A DNA stretch of 21,804 nucleotides from a bacterium (GTDB lineage Bacteria > AUK180): contig JAUXGM010000016.1 of assembly GCA_030622125.1 (NCBI GenBank), forward strand, positions 1 through 21,804, read 5' to 3'. Below the pieces are notes generated by a model. The model was not told the DNA's origin and searched no databases. It saw only the letters and a list, made by a program, of their open reading frames with translations. Made by a program: the position numbers and the translations under genes. Each line of letters opens with the position of its first letter. Position 1 is the first letter of the stretch. Positions 1-6,442 of this stretch are shown here, piece by piece.

Positions 1-1269
1 AAAAATATCATCTATATATCGCTTAAAATAATCAAGGGAAAGTACCTCTTTCAACCGATCGCTTCCGATCTTTTCGATGAAAAATTCATTTTTTAGTATT
101 ACTTTTGAAAATAGAGTATCATTTTTAATTGATTCAAAGACAATCGGCTGGATCATTTCATAACTTTTTTTCCTGCTTACTCCATTTTTTAGAAGTTCCG
201 TTAATAAAACTCCGGAGTAAAATCTTTCTCTTGATCTCTCAAGATTTTTTTCAATATTTTCTTTGTTAATATATATATCTTTTGTAATGAATATAAGTTC
301 CTTTGCCAAAAATGCGATAATATGAAAGCAATCGGGGAACATTATTCTCTCAACCGATGAATGTGAGATATCCCTTTCATGCCATAGAACAATGTCTTCA
401 AGTGCGGGTATTGTAAATCCTCTTAACAAACGGGAAAGTCCCGATATTCTTTCGTTCCGTATGGGATTTTTTTTATGAGGCATTGCGGATGACCCCTTTT
501 GTCCCTTTGAAAAAGGTTCCGATACCTCATTGATCTCACTATGGGAAAGTAATCTTATTTCCGTTGCTAATCGGTCAAAAGTGGTTGCCAATATTGCCGC
601 TTCCAAAATGATCCTTGCATATATATCCCGTTGAATTATTTGATTTGTAGCGGCTGCTTTTTTAAGACCCAATTCCTTTAAGACCTCTTTTTCCAGTTCC
701 GGACAAGTATTTGAGTATGTTCCGACGGCACCTGATATCATCCCGATCCCTCCGTCGGAAAGTCCGATCAAGAATTTCTCTATTGATCTTTTTATTTCTA
801 CATAGTGGTTCAAAAATTTTAGTCCGATAGTCGTCGGTTCCGCTATTACATTGTGGGTTCTTCCGGTTGTGATCAAACTCTTTGTTTCAATTGCCTGTTT
901 TTTAATAACTTTTAAGAGTTCGTTGAATAGTTTCCCGAGGTATCTTTCCGTTTCTTTTATTTGTAAACCTGTTGTCGTATCAAGAATATCGGATGATGTG
1001 ATTCCCATGTGAAGTCCTTTTGAAACACCGGATTTTTCTTCAAGGACCTCTATAAAAGCAATAATATCATGCCTTGTGATCTTTTCCCTTTCTATAACAT
1101 CTTTTTCGCTTACCTTTGTTTTAAGTATCTTATCAAAACTTCCCTTTTCCGCAAGACCTTTTTTCTCATAATATCTAACAAGTTCACCTTCGATTTTCAC
1201 AAACTGATTGATCCTATTTTGACCGCTCCATATATTCTCAATAATTTTATCTTTATAACGGCTGATCAT
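1..1269 (-). CDS. purB: adenylosuccinate lyase, C-terminus beyond the window
   Basis: Adenylosuccinate lyase of the fumarase/aspartase superfamily cleaves SAICAR to AICAR and adenylosuccinate to AMP, each time releasing fumarate. I read 423 codons from an ATG at 1269 to the window edge with no stop. Family lengths near 430 residues mean only the last few residues are missing. Visible signatures are the TSSD stretch (GITSSDILDTTTGLQ, about 1010-965), the GRTH...AEPTT substrate motif (about 860-825) and the superfamily signature GSSAMPHKKNPIRNE (about 500-445), whose Ser lies on the flexible catalytic loop. The residue after GRTH is Asn where Gly is usual. The ATG overlaps the purE stop as ATGA, so translation is probably coupled. 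It is the last purine gene visible in the operon. Recognition as PurB is secure. Confidence 0.95.
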   Translation of the reverse strand, partial: MISRYKDKIIENIWSGQNRINQFVKIEGELVRYYEKKGLAEKGSFDKILKTKVSEKDVIEREKITRHDIIAFIEVLEEKSGVSKGLHMGITSSDILDTTTGLQIKETERYLGKLFNELLKVIKKQAIETKSLITTGRTHNVIAEPTTIGLKFLNHYVEIKRSIEKFLIGLSDGGIGMISGAVGTYSNTCPELEKEVLKELGLKKAAATNQIIQRDIYARIILEAAILATTFDRLATEIRLLSHSEINEVSEPFSKGQKGSSAMPHKKNPIRNERISGLSRLLRGFTIPALEDIVLWHERDISHSSVERIMFPDCFHIIAFLAKELIFITKDIYINKENIEKNLERSRERFYSGVLLTELLKNGVSRKKSYEMIQPIVFESIKNDTLFSKVILKNEFFIEKIGSDRLKEVLSLDYFKRYIDDIF

Positions 1270-1706
1270 TTTACCACCGCTTTTTTAAATTTCTCAAACA
1301 ATACTTTTTCCCCCGTTATCCTCAGAGAGAGTAGAGTAGCATTTATGATCCCGGGCTTGTCATAAGAACAAACGGCAAGCGGCACCCCTTTCGGCATCTC
1401 GATCATTGAATATAAGGCATCCAATTTTATCGGAGAACTTGATATGGGAACACCAAGGACAGGGACATCGGAAAGTGAAGCGACAAGTCCCGGTAATGCA
1501 GCGGAAAAACCTGCAACAGCAATGATCGTAGAATAGTCTTTTGATCTCTCTTTTATAAAAGTAATGAGTTCTTCAAGATTTCTATGAGCGGAAAGTATCT
1601 TCACATCATAAGGCACTAATTGTTCGTTCAGAATTTTCTCAACCTTTTCAAAGTGAATAAGATCGCTCTTGCTGCCGAATAAATAAAGGATCTTTTTAGA
1701 TTTCAA
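1266..1706 (-). CDS. purE: 5-(carboxyamino)imidazole/AIR carboxylase PurE-like
   Basis: PurE forms CAIR, the substrate of PurC. I place the start at TTG 1706 (146 residues) because a perfect GGAGG lies seven bases upstream. The in-frame GTG at 1727 would put that site inside the coding sequence. Motifs are GSKSD (residues 11-15), SAHRN (39-43), AGFSAALPG (65-73) and PVLGVP. The middle loop is odd. Class I enzymes have two more residues here and a conserved His (H75 in E. coli), whereas this loop aligns without gaps to the class II type that uses AIR and CO2 directly. SAHR and VPVLGVP, however, look like class I. No purK is seen nearby, which fits either CO2 use or a distant purK. The gene overlaps purA by 11 bases and purB by 4. 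Confidence 0.9.
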   Translation of the reverse strand: MKSKKILYLFGSKSDLIHFEKVEKILNEQLVPYDVKILSAHRNLEELITFIKERSKDYSTIIAVAGFSAALPGLVASLSDVPVLGVPISSSPIKLDALYSMIEMPKGVPLAVCSYDKPGIINATLLSLRITGEKVLFEKFKKAVVK

Positions 1707-2955
1707 TTGTATTCCTCCTTCCTGCACCGAAAGATATGATCTCTATCGGCACTTCGAGATATTTTTCTATAAATTTTAGATATTTTTTTGCATTTTCCGG
1801 AAGTTCATCAAGGGATTCTATATTGTCAAATGCACCCCACCCATCAAAATCTTTATAAACGGGTGTTACCCCTTCAAGTTCAATATAATTTGAGGGATAA
1901 TTTTTTATCTTTTTATTATTCAGTCTATATTCGGTGCAAACCTTCAATCTTGAAAGCCCATTTAAAACATCCAATTTTGTTATTGCGATTCCAGTTATAC
2001 CATTTATTTTGACGGCATATCTCAACATAACAAGATCAAGCCAGCCAACTCGTCTTTGTCTGCCTGTTGTTGTTCCGAACTCCTTTCCTTTTTCCGCAAG
2101 TTTATCTCCTGTTTCATCATTTAATTCCGTTGGAAACGGTCCGTTGCCTACCCTTGTCGTATATGCTTTCACAACTCCGACCACTTTATTTATAGATGTG
2201 ATCGGAAACCCTGTTCCGGTAATCGCTCCGCCAGCCGTTGTATTTGAGGATGTTACAAAAGGATATGTTCCAAAATCAATATCAAGGAATGTCCCTTGTG
2301 CCCCTTCAAAGAGTATCTTTTTACCTTCTTTACATGCTTCAAAAAGCATCATCTCGGTATTTCTTATGTGAGGGAGTAACTGTTTATAGTATTTTTCATA
2401 TTTTTTGTATATATCCTTTGGATCAAACTCCGATTTTCCATATAAATTTTTGAGAATAAAATTGTTGAATTTAAGATTCTTCTTTATATTTTCTTTTGCA
2501 AGTCCTGTATTTTCAAAGTCACAAAAACGAATGCCGATACGAGCGATCTTATCCCTGTATGTAGGACCTATCCCGCGCTTTGTTGTTCCGATCTTTTCAT
2601 CTTTTCCCTCTTTTGCAGAATCAAGAGCAATATGAAAATCCATAATAATATTACATTTATCGGAGATAAAAAGATTTTTCGTCGAGATATTTTTTTCTTT
2701 TAAGGTATTGATCTCTTTTAAAAGCATTTCGGGATTTACCACCACACCGTTTCCAATAACACATTGGACATTCGGGTACATTATGCCCGATGGTATCAAG
2801 TGGTTGAAAAAATAATTTTTGTCTATCTTGATCGTGTGTCCGGCATTATCTCCGCCTTGAAACCTAACGACATAATCCATTTTTTCGGCAAGGTAATCCG
2901 TTATCTTTCCCTTTCCCTCATCGCCCCATTGAAGCCCTAAAAGAATCGTTCCCAC
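1696..2955 (-). CDS. purA: adenylosuccinate synthetase
   Basis: PurA joins IMP and aspartate using GTP to make adenylosuccinate, the first committed step to AMP. The 419 residues match the usual bacterial length. The N-terminal GTP loop reads WGDEGKGK (10-17) with catalytic Asp12, and GGDNAGHT (34-41) contains catalytic His40. RGIGPTYRDK follows in the IMP region, and TTTGRQRRVGW is the switch/aspartate-binding loop. The start is GTG 2955, preceded by GAGGAG with six bases between. It lies 14 bases after the purH stop and ends inside the start region of purE. Together with purB it gives the operon both IMP-to-AMP steps. Nothing is missing in the sequence. Confidence 0.96.
   Translation of the reverse strand: MGTILLGLQWGDEGKGKITDYLAEKMDYVVRFQGGDNAGHTIKIDKNYFFNHLIPSGIMYPNVQCVIGNGVVVNPEMLLKEINTLKEKNISTKNLFISDKCNIIMDFHIALDSAKEGKDEKIGTTKRGIGPTYRDKIARIGIRFCDFENTGLAKENIKKNLKFNNFILKNLYGKSEFDPKDIYKKYEKYYKQLLPHIRNTEMMLFEACKEGKKILFEGAQGTFLDIDFGTYPFVTSSNTTAGGAITGTGFPITSINKVVGVVKAYTTRVGNGPFPTELNDETGDKLAEKGKEFGTTTGRQRRVGWLDLVMLRYAVKINGITGIAITKLDVLNGLSRLKVCTEYRLNNKKIKNYPSNYIELEGVTPVYKDFDGWGAFDNIESLDELPENAKKYLKFIEKYLEVPIEIISFGAGRRNTIEI
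1714..1718 (-). promoter_or_regulatory. ribosome binding site of purE
   Basis: GGAGG on the minus strand, inside the 3' end of purA, seven bases before TTG 1706. It favours the TTG start over the upstream GTG at 1727. Confidence 0.75.
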
Positions 2956-2969
2956 TTTTTTCTCCTCTT

Positions 2970-4457
2970 CTAATGTCTAAAATATCTTTTACCGGTAAAA
3001 TACATCCCGATGCCGAGTTCCATTGCTTTTTTAATAACCTTTTTATCCTTGATGGAACCGCCGGGCTGAACAATAACCGTAATACCATATTTTTTTGCAA
3101 GTTCAACTGAATCGGTGAACGGAAAAAAACCGTCTGAGATCAAGACACTATCTTTTACCTCATCTTTCCCTTGATCCACCGCCCGTTGTAATGCCTCTAT
3201 TCTATTCGGAAATCCGAAACCGGCACCGATAAGAACCCCGTTTTTCACTAAGATCACACTATTTGAAACATAAGTCCTTATTATTGAAAGTCCGAAATCA
3301 ATATCATTCATAGAAAATATTTTTTTATTTACATCCGCAACCTTTTGCAGTTCAATCTTTTCCGGAAATACCTTATTTTCAAGAAGTATCCCGCCGAAGC
3401 CCCTATATGTTTTTGTAAAATCGATCTCTTGAAGATCACCGACAAGTATTCTTATATTTTTTCTCTTTTCAAAAAGAATCTTAATTCCATTCCTTGAAAT
3501 ATCCGGAAGGATCAACACCTCAAAAAAATTTTCCCGGAATTTCATTAAAAAATTATCAGAAGGCTTTCTATTGAATGTAATTACACTGCCAAAGGCGGAA
3601 ACAGTATCTGTTTTGTATGCCTTTTCAAAACATTCCTCGATACCTTCTCCTGTGGCAACACCGATTGGATTGCCGTGCTTTACAATGGAACAAGCGGGTT
3701 TTTTAAATTCGGAGATCGCCCAGATCCCGATAAAACCGTCATAATAATTATTGAAACTCAAATTTTTCTTTTTAAAATATTTTTTAAAGTTATTCAGATT
3801 ATATTTAAAATTACCAAGTTCATAGATATTCCCAATATCCGACGGATTTTCACCGTATCTGACATCGTCACCTCTTTCAAGAGCAATTGTCTTAAATTTA
3901 TAGTTATCTTCACTATCTATACTTTCGGCAATGATCGAATCATAGTAAGATGTAAAGTAAAATGCCTTTTTTGCCATCTTCAATTTAAAATTTTTACCAT
4001 AAGAATTGTCAAGATATCTTAAAAGATCGTTTGCATCAAAAAACGGTGTAACAAGATCATAATTTTTTGCAGCAGCTCGCAGCAAAGTTATACCGCCAAT
4101 ATCGATAAGTTCAATATTTTTTTTAAAATCTTCTCCTTTTGGAAAAGGATAGAGATTGACATAAACAATTTCAATATTTTTCAATGGATTATTATTTTTA
4201 AGTGGACCTTTCCTTAATAACGCTTCATATAAAATAGGTGATAAAGTTTTAACCCTTCCATCCTGAAGATTATCAATGTCCAGTATTTTTGAAAGATCTT
4301 TTGATACAATATTATGCTCTTTAAAAAAATTGTATGTTCCGGAAGTAGCTAAAATCTCATATCCTTTTTGAATCAGTGATCGTGCAACATTTAATAACTC
4401 TTCATCTTTTTTAAAAGATGATATTATAGTGCCAGGTTGACGGTTTGACGGTTTCAC
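2970..4457 (-). CDS. purH: bifunctional AICAR transformylase / IMP cyclohydrolase
   Basis: PurH formylates AICAR with 10-formyl-THF and closes the ring to IMP. The N-terminal MGS-like cyclohydrolase domain covers roughly residues 10-190 and includes LQDGRVKTLSP. The transformylase domain follows with RYGENP and the catalytic Lys-His in IVKHGNPIGVA. The C-terminus shows SDGFFPF, QPGGSIKD and the typical FTGKRYFRH ending. Length (495) is slightly short of the usual 510-530. The GTG start at 4457 has AGGGAG seven bases upstream and overlaps the stop of the transposase-like gene as GTGA. Residues 2-10 (KPSNRQPGT) are encoded by the terminal inverted repeat of the inserted element. Family resemblance starts only at about IISSF, so the native start appears to have been replaced. 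Confidence 0.95.
   Translation of the reverse strand: MKPSNRQPGTIISSFKKDEELLNVARSLIQKGYEILATSGTYNFFKEHNIVSKDLSKILDIDNLQDGRVKTLSPILYEALLRKGPLKNNNPLKNIEIVYVNLYPFPKGEDFKKNIELIDIGGITLLRAAAKNYDLVTPFFDANDLLRYLDNSYGKNFKLKMAKKAFYFTSYYDSIIAESIDSEDNYKFKTIALERGDDVRYGENPSDIGNIYELGNFKYNLNNFKKYFKKKNLSFNNYYDGFIGIWAISEFKKPACSIVKHGNPIGVATGEGIEECFEKAYKTDTVSAFGSVITFNRKPSDNFLMKFRENFFEVLILPDISRNGIKILFEKRKNIRILVGDLQEIDFTKTYRGFGGILLENKVFPEKIELQKVADVNKKIFSMNDIDFGLSIIRTYVSNSVILVKNGVLIGAGFGFPNRIEALQRAVDQGKDEVKDSVLISDGFFPFTDSVELAKKYGITVIVQPGGSIKDKKVIKKAMELGIGMYFTGKRYFRH
4429..4453 (+). repeat. left terminal inverted repeat (purH side)
   Basis: Inverted copy of 5237-5261, 24 of 25 positions identical. Read toward purH on the minus strand it has no stop codon in any frame and encodes PurH residues 2-10. 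Confidence 0.85.
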
Positions 4458-5245
4458 GATTTTTCTCCCTTTATATATGTATTTCCCTCTATTTCTTTAT
4501 CAATAATTTGCTTCTTTTTTTTACTTTTTTCAATTGTACTTAATGCATCTGATATTGTGGTATGTCGTGATTTTTTCTCTATCACTCTAATTTTTTCCAA
4601 TGTCAATTTTCCATAGTATCTCAATAAATACCATTTTAAATGTAATAAAAATTTCTCTCTTGTTCTCCAAACTCCCACCCATACTTTTTTTTTGGGTAAA
4701 TAATTTTTTAAAGATTCCTTTATTTCTTCTATTGTCATTTTTTTATCTTTAATTTTCTCTTTTCTTTGTTCCAATTTTACATTTTTCTTTTCTTTTCGTC
4801 TATTTATCACCATTAGAACTTTTTCCCTTTCTAATTCGTCCATTAAAAATTGTCCTTTATTTAGTTTTAAAAAGTTTTTACTAATGTCATCACATTTTTG
4901 TTCTTTAAGCCATTTTACAAATAATTTTCTGCCTATATCTCTATCATCACTAAACATTTTGTAAATTAAATCATAACTATGATTTTCATTTTTATGTATT
5001 ATTTCTTGCAAATTACTCCATTTGTATTCTTCTGGCACAGAAACTATTCCTGCTACTACTGGATTATTATAAATATATGCAATTGATGTTAATAAATGTC
5101 TATCTCCTGATATTAATTTACTTTTATGTCGTCCTTGAAATACATGTCCTTTTCTATTATATACTTTGTTAACATAACGGGCAAATTTTGTAGAGTATTT
5201 CTGTATGAATTCTGAGAGCCTTTTATTAGATATCTGAACCGTCAA
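4454..5245 (-). CDS. REP-associated tyrosine transposase-like protein lacking the HUH domain
   Basis: The first 75 residues match the second half of the Y1/IS200-like RAYT family: a start resembling the segment just after the MPNHxHLL motif, then NRKGHVFQGRHKSKLISGD, YIYNNPVVAGIV and EEYKWSN. The N-terminal part that carries the metal-binding HUH motif is absent, and upstream DNA is purC, so it is not merely in another frame. A Lys/Glu-rich middle follows. Around residues 200-240, YYGKLTLEKIRVIEKKSRHTTISDAL resembles the DnaA C-terminal helix-turn-helix found in some RAYTs. The 263-codon frame is open throughout. The TTG start at 5245 overlaps the purC stop as TTGA, and the stop overlaps the purH GTG as GTGA. 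Strand transfer is unlikely without HUH. DNA binding may remain. It looks lower in GC than the pur genes. Confidence 0.7.
   Translation of the reverse strand: MTVQISNKRLSEFIQKYSTKFARYVNKVYNRKGHVFQGRHKSKLISGDRHLLTSIAYIYNNPVVAGIVSVPEEYKWSNLQEIIHKNENHSYDLIYKMFSDDRDIGRKLFVKWLKEQKCDDISKNFLKLNKGQFLMDELEREKVLMVINRRKEKKNVKLEQRKEKIKDKKMTIEEIKESLKNYLPKKKVWVGVWRTREKFLLHLKWYLLRYYGKLTLEKIRVIEKKSRHTTISDALSTIEKSKKKKQIIDKEIEGNTYIKGEKS
4465..4470 (-). promoter_or_regulatory. ribosome binding site of purH, inside the inserted gene
   Basis: AGGGAG on the minus strand, seven bases before GTG 4457. It lies within the last codons of the transposase-like gene, so initiation of purH depends on sequence inside the inserted element. 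Confidence 0.65.
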
Positions 5246-5261
5246 ATCGTCAACCTGGCAC
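5237..5261 (-). repeat. right terminal inverted repeat (purC side)
   Basis: Inverted copy of 4429-4453. Read from purC on the minus strand, two of the three frames meet a TGA and the third stays open and contains the TTG start used by the transposase-like gene. The purC stop TGA (5244-5242) is inside it. Confidence 0.85.
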
Positions 5262-5955
5262 TTTTTTTTAATCTATTTAAAATTTCATTATAATGTTCCA
5301 TAACTCCATCCAGCCCCTTTCTATACCGTTCTTTATCATACATTTCGCCGTTCTTTCCCCATAGACGACAGGAATCGGGATCAATCTCATCGGCAAGAAT
5401 AATATTATTATCATTGTTTTTTCCAAACTCTATCTTAAAATCAACCAAAACAATGTCAATTTTTTTAAAAATTTCTTTTAGGATCTCATTTATTTTTAAA
5501 GCGTATGCCTTCATTTTCTTAATCTCAATTTCATTTGCAATATCCAAAAATTCAAATAATTCTCTTGTTAATTGCGGATCATTTTTTTCATCATCCTTAA
5601 AGAAAAATTCTACGAGCGGTTTTTTAAATTCTTCGCCTTCCTTGAAATTAAATCTTTTTAAGAAACTTCCATAAGCACGATTTCTAACAACAACTTCCAC
5701 CGGGATCATTTTTACATCCCTTACTTCTATGGTCTTCTCATCTATTTTTTTTACATAAGCCATTGGGATACCATTCTTTTTTAGAACTTCAAAAAGTATT
5801 GCCGTGATCCCACAATTTAATTCACCTTTACCCTTCATTTTTTCGTGCTTTACCATATTAAATGCGGTTATGTCATCCTTAAATTCAAGAAAATACTTCC
5901 TTGCTCCCTCATCAAAGAGGACCTTTTTTGTTTTTCCCTCAGCTACAAGCTTCAT
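5242..5955 (-). CDS. purC: SAICAR synthetase
   Basis: PurC couples CAIR and aspartate with ATP to form SAICAR. The 237 residues match the short bacterial form. Visible are the N-terminal GKTKKV nucleotide loop, VVVRNRAYGSFLKR, LVDFKIEFG and ADEIDPDSCRLW, the expected order of ATP and substrate motifs. The ATG at 5955 has GGAG five bases upstream. It is the first gene of the minus-strand purine operon, with a plausible promoter at 5996-6023. Its last residues (SARLTI) and the TGA come from the terminal repeat of the inserted element. The family core ends at about EILNRLKK, so the enzyme is probably intact. Confidence 0.95.
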   Translation of the reverse strand: MKLVAEGKTKKVLFDEGARKYFLEFKDDITAFNMVKHEKMKGKGELNCGITAILFEVLKKNGIPMAYVKKIDEKTIEVRDVKMIPVEVVVRNRAYGSFLKRFNFKEGEEFKKPLVEFFFKDDEKNDPQLTRELFEFLDIANEIEIKKMKAYALKINEILKEIFKKIDIVLVDFKIEFGKNNDNNIILADEIDPDSCRLWGKNGEMYDKERYRKGLDGVMEHYNEILNRLKKSARLTI

Positions 5956-6023: not shown

Positions 6024-6227
6024 ATAAAAAAATTGAAAAATTTCAGAAACATATTGGATTTTACTTGTAAAAGAATTCGGTATTTAAATAATAATATTAA
6101 CCACAGATTAGACAGATTAGACAGATTAAAAATAAAAAATTTATTGAAAACAGAAAAATATTTGAGATTAATCTTTAAATTTTCAGTTATGAAATGAAAT
6201 TTCATTATTCTAAATCTTTTCAATTAT

Positions 6228-6245
6228 TAGAAAATTAATTTTCTA
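6228..6245. repeat. 18-bp perfect palindrome
   Basis: TAGAAAATTAATTTTCTA equals its own complement. It lies near the middle of the 6048-6395 element. It is all but AT, so weak as independent evidence. Confidence 0.5.
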
Positions 6246-6268
6246 TATTAAAAAAAAGATTTAATAAA

Positions 6269-6290
6269 AAGTGATTTGGTAAAATCACTT
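6269..6290. repeat. 9-bp stem, 4-base loop hairpin
   Basis: AAGTGATTT, loop GGTA, AAATCACTT: a perfect stem inside the MITE-like element. No T-run follows on the plus strand, so it is not an obvious terminator. Confidence 0.6.
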
Positions 6291-6413
6291 AAACTGAAAA
6301 TTTAAGAGACTTTAAAATCCGTACAATCCGTCAAATCTGTGGTTAAAAAATCTTATTTGGTAAAAAAACTGTTTTTTTAAAAAGTCCAATATGTTGAGAC
6401 ACCAGACATTTTT

Positions 6414-6442
6414 TTGACAAAAAAGAGCAAATAAGGTATAAT
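6414..6442 (+). promoter_or_regulatory. consensus sigma-70 promoter, near-leaderless gene
   Basis: TTGACA (6414-6419), 17 bases, TATAAT (6437-6442): both boxes and the spacing are exact consensus. The expected start point near 6449 leaves only about ten bases before ATG 6459, and no Shine-Dalgarno site is visible there. It probably drives the 6459-14538 gene series. Confidence 0.8.

Follow-up and report, generated by a model that had tools for sequence, protein, structure and literature searches.

A RAYT cassette between purC and purH, probably an entrenched and translationally coupled TIRtron inserted in an ancestor of at least two genera

The window, as we call the whole 21,804-nt stretch of contig JAUXGM010000016.1 that was analyzed, contains a purine operon in which purC and purH are separated by an open reading frame (ORF) for a REP-associated tyrosine transposase (RAYT) flanked by terminal inverted repeats (TIRs), giving the gene order C-[RAYT]-H-A-E (Table 1). 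For comparison we use L046, the purC-RAYT-purH locus of genome G002 (contig JAGGYO010000182.1, “bacterium isolate AUK180”), which belongs to another genus of the same family. The window genome is a MAG and, judging by its kinship to G002, probably belongs to AUK180 (“Candidatus Uvuciota”), a GTDB phylum listed with 3 genomes in PMC11382960.

Table 1. Features of the purC-purH region in the window.
Feature	Position	Strand	Evidence or sequence
purC (SAICAR synthetase)	5242..5955	-	PF01259, 3e-73
Upstream TIR	5237..5262	-	head GTGCCAGG and doubled box TTGACGAT/TTGACGGT
RAYT/TnpAREP-like ORF, 5'-truncated, 263 aa	4454..5245	-	NF047646 match and alignment with L046
AGGGAG, Shine-Dalgarno-like	4465..4470	-	inside RAYT ORF, 7 nt 5' of purH GTG
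Downstream TIR	4428..4453	+	head GTGCCAGG, boxes TTGACGGT x2
purH	2970..4457	-	PF01808, 5e-61; PF02142, 1e-11; GTG start just upstream of TIR
purA, next gene of the operon	1696..2955	-	PF00709, 1e-178
purE	1266..1727	-	PF00731, 6e-35

The two arms of the inverted repeat are 26 bp long, with 25 of 26 positions matching in the core. An inverted-repeat insertion between purC and purH had been proposed in the initial annotation and is confirmed both by these arms and by the element-free junctions of three relatives described below; the repeat is real, but its ends had been given as 25 bp. The PurC codons AGT GCC AGG TTG ACG ATT TGA (5262-5242) are repeat sequence, and the upstream arm thereby provides the last six residues, SARLTI, which follow directly on ...KK, and the stop codon. 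Homology of PurC to four family members stops at residue 230-231, which is the repeat boundary. The RAYT ORF starts with a TTG (5245-5243) that overlaps the purC stop as TTGA, and its own stop, TGA (4456-4454), overlaps the purH start (GTG, 4457-4455) as GTGA, while PurH residues 2-10 (KPSNRQPGT) are encoded by the downstream arm (4454-4428). The sequence thus agrees with the initial annotation in that the end of PurC, the TTG of the ORF and PurH residues 2-10 lie within the repeat ends, that both junctions are four-base overlaps, and that the ribosome site of purH (4470-4465) is located inside the inserted gene.

On the reverse strand the upstream arm contains TGA in two frames because the two copies of the box have a spacing of 8, and the downstream arm is open in all three frames. 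This polar design, with stops on entry and open frames on exit, holds for the window TIR and is not general, as 28 TIR arm sequences from 26 RAYT loci gave 29 versus 27 frames, with 30 and 27 in shuffled sequences. In the predicted RNA fold, the arms pair with each other (z -4.5). When up to three mismatches were allowed, the arm sequence was found six times in the 2.08-Mb window genome, as compared to no occurrence of the reversed control pattern; of the four dispersed copies, one is exact and three each carry 3 differences in 26 bases. The flanks of the cassette consist of GTGCCAGG and a direct box pair, and both a GTAG tag and the GGGGWSAS head are absent. A CGTC-type REP family was considered, given that the boxes contain GACG, and was set aside as no such stem-loop was seen.

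The inserted ORF has no Pfam match above the cut-off. Its match to NF047646, the NCBIfam profile for REP-associated tyrosine transposases, is confined to profile positions 66-146; the E value is 3e-8 for this part, and the match does not reach the whole-protein cut-off. The ORF is 48% identical to the full-length 324-aa RAYT of L046 over residues 63-318. According to both the profile coordinates and the alignment, the first ~66 residues are missing, including the HUH motif, which is intact in L046 (QNHFH, H60/H62) and of which the histidine is nearly invariant among 38 RAYTs. The conserved tyrosine, which we take to be the catalytic nucleophile, is retained (Y57 in the window, Y119 in L046) and is invariant in the 38 RAYTs. 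On these similarities, the inserted ORF is classified as a RAYT/TnpAREP of the TIR-flanked “TIRYT” type that has been truncated at its 5' end, the exact deletion being known from one assembly. Four further full-length RAYTs are located elsewhere in the window genome.

In G002, purC, a full-length RAYT with the HUH motif and purH follow each other in the same order with similar ends, and the arms of the cassette match at 25 of 26 positions, as compared to the 26-bp arms of the window. PurC ends with ...RLRKVPG and a stop within the arm, PurH starts with an ATG as MKASKRQPGTIISSFKK, as compared to VKPSNRQPGTIISSFKK in the window, and the RAYT stop overlaps the purH start as ATGA. Here also, a Shine-Dalgarno-like sequence, AAGGA, equivalent to AGGGAG in the window, is located inside the RAYT ORF, and the two genera share the point of fusion to PurH down to the base (GGCAC/..AT.AT.TCATC, with the slash at the fusion point). 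This same arrangement in a second genus argues against an assembly error or chance as the origin of the junction as such, and both were rejected.

The order purL-F-M-C-H-A-E is kept in G001-G004, with the RAYT as the sole difference between C and H, and the order purC-H-A-E is conserved in four genera. At the purC-purH junction of G001, G003 and G004, neither the element nor the repeat sequence was found, and none of the three thus presents the case of a relative with the end sequence at purC and purH that lacks the element. In these genomes purC and purH overlap directly, as GTGA or ATGA, and PurH starts with MKKAIVSS or MRRAIISS; compared to G003, the cassette replaces ~14 bases that hold the native stop and start. 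The overlaps had been taken to indicate evolved translational coupling. They are real, but since an equally tight overlap is present without the element, the coupling was kept or re-made and not invented. The downstream RAYT-purH overlap is common to both genera and the upstream TTGA overlap is confined to the window lineage. It came about through the 5' deletion, which placed RAYT codon ~67 beside the arm, and through a difference of one base in the run of A residues that precedes the arm (A8 in the window; L046 has AAGAAAG), owing to which the window purC bypasses the first TGA of the arm and terminates at the second.

Because a full-length copy occupies the same site in G002 and the element is absent in three relatives, the comparative sequence data indicate that the insertion predates the split of the two genera and replaced the native junction, and that the cassette was inherited vertically and lost its 5' end later, in the window lineage. 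Two separate insertions, one per genus, of related RAYT cassettes with a preference for this junction would fit with the TIR boxes, which differ in concert between the genera (TTGACGG versus TTGACGC) and match the solo copies of their own genome. They would also fit with the weak grouping of the two carrier lineages (80/85) in the purC/H/A/E host tree, which makes one loss in G001/G004 possible. However, the window ORF and L046 are sisters (100/98) in the tree built from 38 RAYTs, with the nearest other RAYTs only 32% and 28% identical, and each is the sole copy of its clade in its genome. The base-identical fusion to PurH, and a RAYT identity of 48% between the genera that is close to that of purA (52%), likewise argue for one event. 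We consider two insertions very unlikely.

The initial annotation had suggested that other copies of the ends might also be located at gene boundaries, and further RAYT cassettes of the window genome were indeed found at translation junctions, which means that the purC-purH case is no unique accident. A second cassette (L010, contig C140, 1155-2204) precedes the gene for guanylate kinase (gmk). The gene 5' of it ends with ...NWGRWLV and a stop in the left arm, the gmk ATG is located five bases before the RAYT stop, and residues 2-13 (SKLIKLTTVPIS) are encoded by the right arm. This leader is absent from gmk in G001, G002, G003 and G004, where gmk directly abuts another gene. A third cassette is located at the gene for a YchF-like GTPase in both genera (L011 on contig C172 in the window genome and its syntenic orthologue L099 in G002; 1334-1366). 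At one arm edge lies the TAG that stops the upstream gene; at the other lies the TAA of the RAYT, which overlaps the ATG of the GTPase gene. At L009 (contig C73), urocanase starts 9 bases after the arm. We also surveyed 35 inverted-repeat RAYT loci from several phyla: counting ORFs of at least 80 codons, as bare ORFs without a matched control, at 21 loci a same-strand ORF stops no more than 60 bases from the outer edge of the upstream arm, and both sides fit at 13. The reliable cases are those with Pfam support, namely gmk, YchF-like, asparagine synthase, GatB, EF-G, MFS and AAA. Separately, a solo TIR copy in G004 (L080, 1507-2580) appears to give a glycosyltransferase gene its stop codon.

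The dN/dS ratio of the RAYT between the genera was estimated at ~0.31, as compared to 0.13-0.20 for purC, purA and purE, at dS values near saturation. In relative-rate comparisons with two outgroups, 14 and 20 unique changes were counted in the window copy versus 26 and 22 in the intact copy. By these measures the truncated copy is not evolving faster than the intact one and no relaxation is seen, which leaves either continued constraint or a recent truncation as the explanation. A plain decaying insertion, in which the ORF would be a pseudogene in the course of being lost and the overlaps chance by-products, would be consistent with the loss of the catalytic domain and with the three inexact copies among the four dispersed TIRs. 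It is more difficult to reconcile with the lack of rate acceleration, with a frame of 263 codons that is uninterrupted in an A+T-rich genome, with a four-base RAYT-purH overlap that is retained in both genera at 48% identity, and with the same architecture at other junctions. Decay thus seems unlikely to us as an account of the locus, as compared to a cassette held in place by its role at the junction.

A tandem box of 7-9 bases, the sequence of which is element-specific, was detected in 20 of 34 RAYT TIRs at shuffle p≤0.03, where about one would be expected. A G-rich head with such a box was seen in several phyla (L103, L094, L008, L097, L098, L102, L055, L106 and others). In the solo copies of the window genome (G000) and G002, the head GTGCCAGG and the tail CAGATTTTATTGATTGRAATTTGAG are constant and both units of the doubled box vary together (TTGACGGT, TTGACGCT, TTGCTTCT); the TTGCTTCT box has only four matches, to none of which a RAYT was assigned. 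Copies of ~60 bp with this constant head and tail and a central doubled box that varies in concert are located at L078, L082, L085, L089, L125, L137, L003, L004 and L118. No clean empty site that would mark a recent solo insertion was found in the species pair G001/G004, the loci being rearranged or composite. One insertion in G001 (L079, ~1640-1970) includes a portion of a different interspersed repeat family, which has more than 50 matches in G004. The spacer 5' of purC (window 6030-6420) is itself a high-copy interspersed repeat with 72 matching stretches in the genome, two further copies being near full length (88% and 83%), and contains nested inverted repeats (6048-6062/6381-6395 and 6097-6132/6311-6346).

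The C-terminal part of the window ORF resembles DnaA domain IV in its sequence. Taken alone, the ORF matches DnaA TIGR00362 weakly (positions 335-431, E 0.011). Seventeen of the 38 RAYTs match PF08299 (Bac_DnaA_C), and the RAYT family profile matches solved DnaA chains at 9.5e-9 and TnpAREP (4er8) at 7e-6. The DnaA-like stretch is the most conserved region of the RAYT (~62%). AlphaFold models of the window ORF and the L046 RAYT were unusable (pLDDT 41 and 39). The concerted variation of the doubled boxes between a constant head and tail suggests that they are candidate binding sites read by the DnaA-like domain; being element-specific and located next to this domain, they might provide an answer to the question left open in PMC6006769 about its target. 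It could further be imagined that the truncated RAYT was exapted as a regulator of the operon, with the DnaA-like region binding the doubled TIR boxes to tune expression. The retention of this HTH-like, most conserved region near intact boxes would speak for such a role, as would the frequency of tandem boxes among RAYT TIRs, the DnaA match of the family profile and the unaccelerated evolution of the truncated copy. Yet the DnaA match of the window protein itself is weak and the structure models are of low confidence (pLDDT ~40), and we regard exaptation as decidedly improbable.

Overall, these results make it highly probable that the purC-purH cassette is an entrenched, translationally coupled TIRtron that was inserted in an ancestor of at least two genera and later truncated. 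A TIR-flanked RAYT would have entered the purC-purH junction in this common ancestor, and ~14-20 bases with the purC stop and the purH start would have been replaced, either at insertion or by later trimming. Judging from the overlaps, the spacing and the operon order, the genes are probably co-transcribed; ribosomes that leave purC may reinitiate on the RAYT frame, and those that finish the RAYT may reinitiate on purH. The open RAYT frame would then be the path that carries translation on to purH, and its translation may prevent the long TIR-TIR stem from closing over the purH start. A deletion in the window lineage appears to have fused the upstream TIR to RAYT codon ~67, thereby removing the HUH catalytic core; the remaining protein is presumably translated, catalytically dead and probably still capable of binding DNA. 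Under this model the cassette is hard to lose, because clean excision would take with it the purC stop and the purH start. A broader conjecture is that TIR-flanked RAYT cassettes act as a recurrent “translational splice” at operon junctions, where they supply the stop before and the start and leader codons after, and become irremovable, and that the dead derivative in the window regulates its own operon as a DNA-binding protein through the doubled TIR boxes; in this full form, we think it quite unlikely.

RAYTs are vertically kept, often single-copy transposases, and why they persist is an open question. The cassettes described here suggest a concrete route, in which essential genes (purC/purH, gmk) come to take their stop and start from the ends of the cassette, such that precise excision cannot remove the element and the reading frame must stay open. 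No description of TIRtrons that supply stops or starts to flanking genes was found in the open-access literature.

TIRtrons, or TIRYTs, were named by Di Nocera et al. 2013 (PMC3733652) and consist of a RAYT-like gene between terminal inverted repeats; most TIRYTs belong to TnpAREP subclass 2.1 and have Bac_DnaA_C or HTH C-termini (PMC6006769). The purC-purH cassette resembles them in its RAYT-like gene with HUH and tyrosine (intact in L046), in TIRs that replace REPs, in the solo TIRs and possibly in a DnaA-like C-terminus. It differs in that its head is GTGCCAGG instead of GGGGWSAS, which is common and not universal in TIRtrons, in the lack of HUH in the window copy, and in its position inside an operon, where it is retained and where the flanking essential genes have their ends encoded by the TIRs. 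As in the gammaproteobacterial RAYT/REPtrons (PMC2817692), a transposase gene is placed between two inverted repeats of its own and solo copies are dispersed in the genome, but the purC-purH cassette lacks a GTAG-tagged palindromic REP, and its copies are far fewer. The Y1 HUH transposase fold is shared with IS200/IS605 elements, in contrast to which the cassette is single-copy, has inverted repeats, is vertically kept and gives no sign of autonomous mobility. Finally, coding palindromes, such as REPs in genes (PMC3733652) and the Rickettsia palindromic elements, are likewise repeat DNA translated within host proteins, whereas here a whole transposase cassette joins two genes, giving one its stop and the other its start.
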